A stretch of 5,238 nucleotides of DNA, taken from positions 1 through 5,238 of the forward strand of contig JACQWU010000320.1 of assembly GCA_016209155.1 (NCBI GenBank), read 5' to 3'. Source of the DNA: Candidatus Desantisiibacteriota bacterium. Its GTDB lineage: Bacteria; JACRDZ01. The position numbers and the translations under genes are program-made. Shown one piece after another: positions 1 to 2,688 of the stretch. The number at the start of each line of letters is the position of its first letter. The first letter of the stretch is position 1. The notes below the pieces were generated by a model. The model searched no databases and had not been told where the DNA came from. It saw only the letters and a program-made list of their open reading frames with translations.

Positions 1-600
1 GATAACCTATCTCTTTTGCTATTTCTAAACGCTGCGTATAAAATTCAATTGCTTTTTTGTACTCGCCTAATGAATAATAATCTACGCCCAGGTTGCCCAA
101 AGCATTACTTTCTCCTAAACGATCACCTATCTCTTTTGCTATTTCTAAACTCTGCTTATGAAACTCAATTGCTTTTTTGTACTCGCCTAATGAATAATAT
201 GCTATGCCCAGGTTGCCCAAAGATTGACCTTCTCCTAAACGATCACCTATCTCTTTTGCTATTTCTAAACGCTGCTCTTGAAATTCAATTGCTTTTTTGT
301 ACTCACCTAAAGAATAATATGCTGAGCCCAGGTTGCCCAAAGATTGACCTTCTCCTAAACGATCACCTATCTCTTTTGATATATCTAAATGCTGCTTATG
401 AAACTCAATTGCTTTTTTGTACTCGCCTAATGAATGATAAGCTATGCCCAGGTTGCCCAAAGCAGCACCTTCACCTAACCGATAACCTATCTCTTTTGCT
501 ATTTCTAAAAGCTGCTCTTGAAACTCAATTGCTTTTTTGTACTCGCCTAATGAATAATATGCTAAGCCCATGTTGCCCAGGTGTGAGCCTTCAAAATTAC
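1..600 (-). repeat. Tandem array of five 120-bp TPR-coding units
   Basis: Units begin at 1, 121, 241, 361 and 481 and keep exact 120-bp register. Each encodes one 40-residue TPR around the core GNLGxAYYSLGEYKKAIEF. The units at 121-240 and 241-360 differ at only 8 of 120 positions, giving 4 amino-acid changes. The unit at 481 fades towards position 600, where the array joins a degenerate TPR-like helix (about residues 566-587). The array continues past the left edge, so the copy number is unknown. The high DNA identity suggests recent unit duplication or gene conversion. Confidence 0.95.
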
Positions 601-2347
601 GCAATTTTAAACGCCTTGCTGCTTTTAATGCTGATTCAAGCCAATGTATACTTTCTTTTGGATGCTGGCGAAAATTAAAAATAAGATATCCTGCATCAGG
701 ATAATCATTGCATAATTTTGCTGTTACTTCATCTTTTTCAGAATGCACCTCAGCCCATACATGGCCAGTTTGAATATTTTTCCATTCTTTATCAAATAAA
801 TTCAACCCCTGCATTATTGCATCCCCGCCTTTACTATAAAGTTCATTAGCATTTCTCAGCACAGATTCATAATTTTTTGCGTGATTAAGAGATGCTGTAT
901 TTAATAATTTTTCTGCTTTCGCCTGACCTAAATCTTCAAAAACAAATTTTTTTACAACATCGCGCATTAGATCATGCATACGGAAACGATTATCTTTTTC
1001 ATTATAAAGCAGGAGACTATATTCAATAAAAACATCCATACAATCATCAATTTCCCCTGTTTTTTTTTCGCAAACTTTTAATGCTGCTTCTTTATCAAAA
1101 CTTTCAGGAAATACAGATAGCATTTCAAAATGTTCTATCACTTCAGGTCTTTCCTGTTTAACTTGATCTAAACTCAATCTCAGGACTGTATCAACATCAA
1201 GATCATCAACTTTTAATTTTTTAAGACGCTCTCGTTCATCAGACAAAAGTTTAATATAATCTTCTATTGTCCGTGCCGGATGTGCTTTTATAAAACTTCC
1301 TGCAACTCGTAAAGCCAGAGGCAGATAACCGCACAATTTTGCTATTTTTTCCAAATCATCTTTTGTGGCTTTTTTGCTGTCAATAACTTTTGTTAATAAT
1401 TCACATGATTCTTCTTTTGACAAAATATTAAGATCAAATGATTTCAAATCCGGTATGCTGACAATTTTATGACGTGATGTTACAATAAAACCACATGGCA
1501 AAACCGGCAGCATATCACGAATCTGAGCCGCATCAAAGGCATTATCAAGAATTATTAAAGCTTTTTTATCTTTAATTACACTTCTATAAATACCAGCTAA
1601 TTCTCGAAGATCATCCGGAAGTTTTGCATCTGGATGAAAAGCTCTAATCACCTTTGTCAAAGTTTGTAAAGAATGATTTTCATCTAAATGTTCTTTTATT
1701 TCCTCTAATTCAGGGTTACCTGTCAGCTTAAAAAATTCTTTATTTTCGATTAACCTGGAAACAGATGTAGCGTGTAAACGTTTACCATCAAAAGCTTCAG
1801 GAACATTACGCAAAATACCTGCAAAAAAACCATCTATTATTACCGGACCCCCTGATAGCCCTTTCCATAATTCAGGATCTTTTGTTTCACCTTCTACTGT
1901 TAATTCCAAATATTCATTTTTTTGTCCTCCAAAAGCCTGCACCTTGCCATTTACTCCAACGCTGTCCTGATATTTTACTTTTTCAGATGAATCAACAATT
2001 TTTCCGGCAATGGGAAATCCGCCGCCAGACCATTCTGCCTGAATATCTTTGCACTTTGCTAATTTCAAAGGTTTATAAAAATTTCTTTTTTTTGAAAGTT
2101 TTATTAAAGCAGCATCAATATATTCATTTTTTTCAAGCCATATCAATTTATGTTCTTCCCAATCCTCATTTTTAAAACGTATCTCAGTTTTAGGTGAATT
2201 AGAAACATTATATCCATGTTTAATAAAAGCATGAGCAACTGTTAACACAAGATCATCTGTAATTGTGTAACCGGTACATAATTCATATTCCCCATTTTTC
2301 AATGGTAAGGAAATTTCCACTAATCTGGATGTATCTACTTTTGGCAT
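1..2347 (-). CDS. Trypsin-like protease / NB-ARC (STAND)-like / TPR-repeat conflict protein, C-terminus cut by window edge
   Basis: The frame is open from ATG at 2347 to the left edge (782 residues, no stop). Residues 1-200 are a trypsin-like fold: H39 in LTVAHAF, D78 in YIDAALIKL and S165 in GLSGGP form an intact triad. There is no signal peptide or membrane segment, so it should act in the cytoplasm. Residues 225-470 match the second half of an NB-ARC/STAND NTPase: Walker B ALIILDNA (D268), VTSRH (289-293), GYLPLAL (340-346) and MHD (457-459). No Walker A is visible between residues 200 and 262. From about 566 onward lie TPRs, five of them regular 40-residue units. By family analogy the TPRs sense, the NTPase switches and the protease is the effector; this is inference. 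The start follows a weak purine-rich site (AGAGAG), 20 nt after the trypco2 stop, so the pair is probably co-transcribed. A signalling role outside defence is possible. Confidence 0.9.
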   Translation of the reverse strand, partial: MPKVDTSRLVEISLPLKNGEYELCTGYTITDDLVLTVAHAFIKHGYNVSNSPKTEIRFKNEDWEEHKLIWLEKNEYIDAALIKLSKKRNFYKPLKLAKCKDIQAEWSGGGFPIAGKIVDSSEKVKYQDSVGVNGKVQAFGGQKNEYLELTVEGETKDPELWKGLSGGPVIIDGFFAGILRNVPEAFDGKRLHATSVSRLIENKEFFKLTGNPELEEIKEHLDENHSLQTLTKVIRAFHPDAKLPDDLRELAGIYRSVIKDKKALIILDNAFDAAQIRDMLPVLPCGFIVTSRHKIVSIPDLKSFDLNILSKEESCELLTKVIDSKKATKDDLEKIAKLCGYLPLALRVAGSFIKAHPARTIEDYIKLLSDERERLKKLKVDDLDVDTVLRLSLDQVKQERPEVIEHFEMLSVFPESFDKEAALKVCEKKTGEIDDCMDVFIEYSLLLYNEKDNRFRMHDLMRDVVKKFVFEDLGQAKAEKLLNTASLNHAKNYESVLRNANELYSKGGDAIMQGLNLFDKEWKNIQTGHVWAEVHSEKDEVTAKLCNDYPDAGYLIFNFRQHPKESIHWLESALKAARRLKLRNFEGSHLGNMGLAYYSLGEYKKAIEFQEQLLEIAKEIGYRLGEGAALGNLGIAYHSLGEYKKAIEFHKQHLDISKEIGDRLGEGQSLGNLGSAYYSLGEYKKAIEFQEQRLEIAKEIGDRLGEGQSLGNLGIAYYSLGEYKKAIEFHKQSLEIAKEIGDRLGESNALGNLGVDYYSLGEYKKAIEFYTQRLEIAKEIGY

Positions 2348-2367
2348 AAGTATTTTCTCTCTGTTTA
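2348..2367 (-). promoter_or_regulatory. Intergenic spacer with weak ribosome binding site for the protease-STAND gene
   Basis: The 20 nt between the trypco2 stop and the ATG at 2347 read, on the minus strand, as a purine-rich AGAGAGAA run about 6-8 nt before the ATG. This is only a partial match to AGGAGG, in contrast to the perfect site in front of the upstream gene. The short spacing suggests the large protein is translated mainly in coupling with its neighbour. Confidence 0.45.
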
Positions 2368-2688
2368 TTATGTCCTATTACCCGTATTACTTACTTCTAT
2401 GTCCGTAAGTTTATTTCCATCTTTATCATACATAACAGGTTTCATGCTTAATTTGATTGTATGTGTAATAGTATCACCATATTTGATTCCGGCATTGGTA
2501 TCAAGAACCCAGAATTTTGTACCTGCAGAAGCATTTGCTTCTTTTGTTACTACTACCTGTAACTCTAAATCTATACTATTTAAATTAAAACGCAACGATT
2601 CTTTTTCTGCTTTTCCAAAAGATATTTGTAATTCCTTTCTTAAATCCTGCAGCATTGTTGAAAGCTGTATTAAATCTTTTTCGCTCAT
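2368..2688 (-). CDS. Trypsin-co-occurring domain 2 (trypco2)-like small protein
   Basis: This is a complete 106-residue protein. Residues 3-27 look like an amphipathic helix. The rest is beta-rich: SLRFNLNSIDLELQVVVTKE (31-50), then KFWVLDTNAG and THTIKLSMKP, ending in a short polar tail. That layout (helix, then LRF...V/I-ELQV-VT, KFWV, HTIKLxxxP) is what I remember for the trypco2 family, named for genes found beside trypsin-like proteases in NTP-dependent conflict systems. Its neighbour here is exactly such a protease, 20 nt downstream, which supports the call independently. No enzyme motif, signal peptide or membrane span is visible. Its biochemical role is not established; an adaptor for, or regulator of, the protease-STAND protein is a reasonable guess. 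The start at 2688 is fixed by a perfect Shine-Dalgarno. Confidence 0.85.
   Translation of the reverse strand: MSEKDLIQLSTMLQDLRKELQISFGKAEKESLRFNLNSIDLELQVVVTKEANASAGTKFWVLDTNAGIKYGDTITHTIKLSMKPVMYDKDGNKLTDIEVSNTGNRT

Follow-up and report, generated by a model that had tools for sequence, protein, structure and literature searches.

The Trypco1 and Trypco2 domains got their names because they co-occur with trypsin-like peptidases in predicted NTP-dependent conflict systems (Kaur et al., eLife 2020, PMC7159879). In the Avs1, Hachiman and Lamassu systems, the protease cuts a pro-nuclease that is encoded directly upstream of it (PMC12799240). The ATPase domain of LypA is without Walker residues, yet it is essential and needed for lysis (PMC13236601). 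Among plant NLRs, ADR1-L2 can act as a helper independently of its P-loop (PMC3636237). Here we describe a Trypco2 gene and the adjoining gene of a trypsin, NB-ARC and TPR protein (Table 1). They are found in a window of 5,238 nucleotides, which is the whole contig C272 (C272:1-5238). The contig belongs to a draft bin of 3.08 Mb in 352 contigs, with a completeness of 78.8%. With a probability of about 60%, the window copy would be a crippled or early-decaying allele, whose ATP switch is deleted in frame and whose encoded protease retains its full triad.

Absence of the P-loop segment

The NB-ARC region of the large protein matches PF00931 with 39.1 bits (cut-off 23.5), and residues 248-393 correspond to positions 87-246 of the 248 in the profile. 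Motif and profile searches found no Walker A sequence GxxxxGK[ST] between the protease and Walker B, and the first third of the NB-ARC domain is absent. An alignment with L130, L131 and L132 reveals a junction at which about 90 residues are absent, comprising the linker, beta1, the Walker A/P-loop and alpha1. In the window, 102 residues separate GxSG from Walker B, versus 160-222 in 28 measurable relatives (one with 351). A P-loop is present in 38 of 38 STAND relatives. The window protein has 34 NB-ARC matches in the fetched loci, and each of them keeps the P-loop as well; some of these loci are near-copies, and the matches are thus not all independent. The predicted ATP switch segment is absent from the window copy. 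The later motifs, namely Walker B, TSR, the GxP-type LPLA and MHD, are present and align with the relatives.

One alignment placed a degenerate P-loop at 'LTGNPELEEIKEHL'. This candidate was rejected, because the residues of this stretch as far as 214 are assigned by the family profile to the C-terminus of the trypsin domain; the profile included the window sequence itself, and its assignment is support rather than proof.

In intact members, the repeat array would bind a cue and the ATP-bound STAND module would oligomerise. The clustered protease would then turn active and cleave its target, with Trypco2 in a dedicated role beside it, as regulator, adaptor or substrate. In the window copy, the NTP-driven step could not run normally, because the in-frame loss of about 90 residues would have taken the linker and beta1-Walker A-alpha1. 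A preliminary description of this DNA had proposed an NB-ARC-like switch and a release of protease activity by TPR sensing. The switch is retained in its later motifs but not in Walker A, as the first matched position is 87 of the 248 in the profile. An NTP switch is not supported for the window copy, and release through a STAND cycle is not to be assumed, since the P-loop segment is missing.

The protease and the Trypco2 protein

The two genes are adjacent on the minus strand, and the large gene starts 20 bases after the Trypco2 stop. An AAGGAGG ribosome-binding site is located immediately 5' of the Trypco2 ATG. A profile search, chosen beforehand as the test that could overturn the Trypco2 assignment, gave a match to PF19631 over the whole profile (1-78 of 78) with an expectation value (E) of 3.1e-19 and 69.4 bits (cut-off 24.2). 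The large protein scores above the curated cut-offs for trypsin, NB-ARC and TPR models alike, with 26.2 bits for trypsin PF00089 (cut-off 20.6) and E 6.8e-53 for TPR_12. The family trypsin profile, which has the window sequence among its members, is aligned over positions 1-223 of 226 with 238 bits. Residues H39, D78 and S165 fall into the catalytic columns, which are occupied by His in 46/46, Asp in 45/46 and Ser in 46/46 of the related domains. The large gene encodes a putative trypsin-like protease with a complete His-Asp-Ser triad. Thus far the preliminary description holds: it had named the closely spaced pair, the Trypco2 likeness, the three kinds of domain, the triad and the four later motifs.

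Weak matches to the Avs1b, LmuA, HamA and RT-Protease defence models come from the trypsin domain of the window protein or from those of its relatives. With the PADLOC 2023 models, the large protein shows TPR or weak protease matches only and Trypco2 shows no match. A profile search of the PDB with Trypco2 gave no significant match. Structure prediction of Trypco2 from its single sequence yielded a weak model of one helix followed by strands (predicted local distance difference test, pLDDT, 61). Residues 1-560 of the large protein, predicted with four sequences, gave a weak model with a pLDDT of 40. Neither model is strong enough to serve as a query for fold comparison. In the trypsin-domain tree the window sequence is found on a very long branch (1.96) beside L128, and no origin is claimed from the tree.

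Recurrence of the Trypco2-trypsin pair

The survey covered 56 further Trypco2 loci, which belong to actinobacteria, cyanobacteria or Chloroflexota. They were picked mostly as best Trypco2 matches and some are near-identical; the figures are counts, not rates. A trypsin-domain gene lies directly downstream on the same strand in 46 of the 56 loci, in agreement with the earlier claim that Trypco2 is associated with trypsin-like proteases. In 38 of these 46, a STAND-type P-loop comes after the trypsin domain (35 by the first scan and three by a later check), and the fusions usually end in TPR or WD40 repeats. Across the loci the STAND type varies among NB-ARC, NPHP3_N/NACHT, nSTAND1 and nSTAND_NTPase5, and so does the repeat type. 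In the sampled loci, Trypco2 is thus associated for the most part with trypsin-STAND-repeat proteins.

The pair of Trypco2 and a trypsin-STAND protein is a recurrent modular unit, of a kind with a predicted role in biological conflicts, because 46 of the 56 loci have the downstream trypsin, 38 have trypsin-STAND and three have exactly trypsin-NB-ARC-TPR. The family placement of the window pair is firm. Since the STAND family and the repeat type swap freely while the Trypco2-trypsin pair persists, the survey suggests that Trypco2 may be the partner of the protease rather than that of the switch. Our leading idea is that Trypco2 would be a substrate or regulator of the adjoining protease, because its position matches that of the pro-nuclease directly upstream of the protease in Avs1, Hachiman and Lamassu.

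The remaining eight of the 46 loci are of several kinds. L143 and L148 have vWA domains, L134 has LGFP repeats and L044 has a MoxR neighbour. The frame of L078 is without a P-loop after the trypsin domain, L121 is cut by the contig end, and L116 and L137 have an early-stopping frame. In L137 (minus strand) the stop is found just before the NTPase and homology continues in the same frame; the near-identical L138 is intact. The trypsin-STAND frame of L116 (minus strand) has an apparent shifted P-loop, VGGQRGQDV, at its end, which could be a frame break or a sequencing error. A Streptomyces plasmid (L044:4688-8161) carries the genes of Trypco2, a trypsin and a MoxR ATPase one after the other, resembling the VMAP-type form.

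Trypco2 is uncommon and unevenly distributed. It is present in 2/386 genomes of a broad sample, the source genome included, in 6/244 genomes of the phylum around a cyanobacterium, in 49/200 genomes of the order around a Streptosporangium and in 3/400 genomes around a Chloroflexota bin. Plasmid records with Trypco2 number 11, of which ten are from Streptomyces and one is from Rhodococcus. Some of the plasmid-borne relatives adjoin integrase or relaxase genes. The Trypco2-trypsin-STAND genes of the cyanobacterial loci L073, L075 and L072 adjoin toxin-antitoxin genes (ParE/Phd, UPF0175 or HepT/MNT). No relative was found in phages, and in viral contigs there was none of Trypco2 or of residues 1-560 of the large protein.

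The conflict role is a prediction, inherited from the literature and from context. The conflict-cassette setting that had been suggested is supported by relatives on plasmids or beside toxin-antitoxin genes and by the weak defence-protease matches. As to a stable core gene in a housekeeping context, the sporadic pairs (2/386 genomes) are not core, in line with the preliminary description; the neighbours in the window are nevertheless ordinary (radical SAM and methyltransferase genes), apart from one NTPase remnant.

Status of the window copy

Loss of function in the window copy would be most likely, because the nucleotide-binding segment is gone, an eroded gene adjoins and broken siblings exist (L137 versus L138). 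Several points weigh against a crippled or early-decaying allele. The 782-codon open frame is far beyond chance (p ~1e-21 for the stop-free state of its 567 non-repeat codons at the given base composition), and a long-dead gene would not retain it together with the intact triad and the conserved motifs past the deletion. LypA (PMC13236601) and ADR1-L2 (PMC3636237) are precedents for P-loop-independent function. Furthermore, the allele is known from one genome only and an error in the assembly join is possible.

A functional P-loop-independent variant would explain the open frame, the intact triad and the conservation of TSR, LPLA and MHD, and it would have the same two precedents. The NB-ARC remnant would then be a scaffold, the protease would be activated by the TPR array, Trypco2 or another, intact STAND partner encoded elsewhere in the genome, and the protein would act as a helper and not as a sensor. 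We consider such a variant unlikely. The same loss is found in 0/38 relatives, and what is gone is one block with linker, beta1, P-loop and alpha1, rather than a motif decayed by point changes. In addition, no sibling genome was found to share the deletion among the 4 genomes covered in the phylum, the other 3 of which gave no match. Slightly less credible still is a working trypsin-STAND immune protein without nucleotide switch, with the NB-ARC part as scaffold and the protease under control of the TPR array, Trypco2 or a separate STAND partner.

An assembly artefact, with a contig misjoin of two points in a gene whose actual P-loop is intact, is comparably doubtful. The junction preserves the frame, which has a chance of 1 in 3, the TPR array is the sole tandem array that was found in the window and does not coincide with the junction, and a search of the own genome gave no second trypsin-NB-ARC piece. 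To be set against this are the draft state of the bin (352 contigs, 78.8% complete) and the break of the contig in a tandem repeat. An ordinary regulatory STAND protein (AfsR/SARP or HaaT-like) without conflict role is highly improbable and was discarded: the NB-ARC part of the window protein is nearest to AfsR modules (PDB AfsR E 3e-30; NCBIfam AfsR E 1e-52 and FxSxx_TPR E 3e-40, all NCBIfam scores being below the curated cut-offs), but no DNA-binding domain was matched in the visible part of the large protein, and the N-terminal protease with its intact triad and the Trypco2 neighbour are both foreign to AfsR-type proteins.

As a probable crippled or early-decaying allele, the window copy is a warning that even a STAND gene of conserved appearance can be without its switch. 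If it were functional, which is less likely, it would be a natural P-loop deletion that works.

Gene neighbourhood and TPR array

The window contains five genes, all on the minus strand (Table 1).

Table 1. Features of the window, with positions on contig C272
Feature	Positions	Strand	Evidence or remark
Methyltransferase gene, incomplete		-	Upstream side of Trypco2 gene
Radical SAM protein gene		-	Upstream side of Trypco2 gene
KAP-like NTPase interior remnant, 100 of ~410 residues	2726..3028	-	Both ends gone, P-loop included
Trypco2 protein, 106 residues, first gene of pair	2368..2688	-	PF19631 match, ribosome-binding site, alignment with 12 relatives
Trypsin / P-loop-less NB-ARC / TPR protein, at least 782 residues	2..2347	-	Runs off contig end
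Trypsin-like protease domain, residues 1-214	1706..2347	-	PF00089, family profile, triad columns
Catalytic H39	2231-2233	-	Aligned triad column
Catalytic D78	2114-2116	-	Aligned triad column
Catalytic S165	1853-1855	-	Aligned triad column
Predicted deletion junction, residues 215-228	1664..1705	-	Alignment with L130-L132, spacing
NB-ARC region without P-loop, residues 228-393	1169..1666	-	PF00931
Walker B ALIILDN, residues 263-269	1541-1561	-	Aligned with L130-L132
TSR motif, residues 290-292		-	Aligned with L130-L132
GxP-type LPLA motif, residues 342-345		-	Aligned with L130-L132
MHD motif, residues 457-459	971..979	-	H and D invariant in alignment with L130-L132
Tandem TPR array, 40-residue units, at least 4.8 copies	2..577	-	TPR models, repeat analysis

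The upstream NTPase is truncated at both ends, which indicates that another cassette once stood at this site and that the site is undergoing erosion or turnover. Relatives of the remnant in L160 (1367-2632, 421 residues) and L161 (1673-2902, 409 residues) are each directly followed by a TPR-array gene, and contig C302 of the same bin bears another pair of KAP-like NTPase and TPR-array genes. A KAP-like NTPase of ~410 residues with a TPR-array protein directly behind it appears to form a two-gene cassette of its own (L160, L161 and L159:1-2113).

The contig end falls inside the TPR array, and the C-terminus of the large protein and the following genes lie beyond it. The array DNA has a 120-bp unit in 4.8 copies with 89% matches. 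Its continuation was sought on the other contigs of the bin and the same repeat was not found. The proportions of synonymous (pS, 0.06-0.31) and non-synonymous (pN, 0.05-0.13) differences among the units are based on too few differences to judge selection. The near-identical units suggest a recent expansion or homogenisation of the putative sensor. Repeat expansion and homogenisation are known for fungal NLR repeats. The TPR arrays of the window protein and of P0003-P0005 are similar, in part with nearly identical units.

Comparison with known systems

The window shares with the VMAP ternary systems (PMC7159879) a Trypco2 gene beside a trypsin-like peptidase that is fused to a larger regulatory protein. 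The fusion there is trypsin-VMAP, whereas that of the window and most surveyed partners is trypsin-STAND-repeat. MoxR and vWA genes accompany the VMAP systems; neither is in the window, whose contig ends before the downstream side. The trypsin domains match those of the nuclease-protease pairs of AVAST type 1, Hachiman and Lamassu (PMC12799240) weakly by profile. The upstream gene of these pairs encodes a pro-nuclease of metallo-beta-lactamase (MBL) fold, whereas in the window it encodes Trypco2, which is without a known catalytic fold. The MBL-fold nuclease gene that is characteristic of Avs1 was not found upstream in the window, where Trypco2, the NTPase remnant, radical SAM and methyltransferase genes are located.

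The CARD-NLR system LypABC (PMC13236601) has an N-terminal CARD-like domain in LypA and a separate intact NLR partner, neither of which is seen in the window. Common to both are the trypsin-like peptidase and, in LypA, an ATPase domain without Walker motifs; LypB is a TPR-bearing NLR, and the window protein also has TPRs. The Streptosporangiales loci L130, L131 and L132 have the same gene and domain order as the window (trypsin-NB-ARC-TPR) with 22-25% identity overall. They keep a GxxGxGKT P-loop, whereas the window copy is without the whole P-loop segment.
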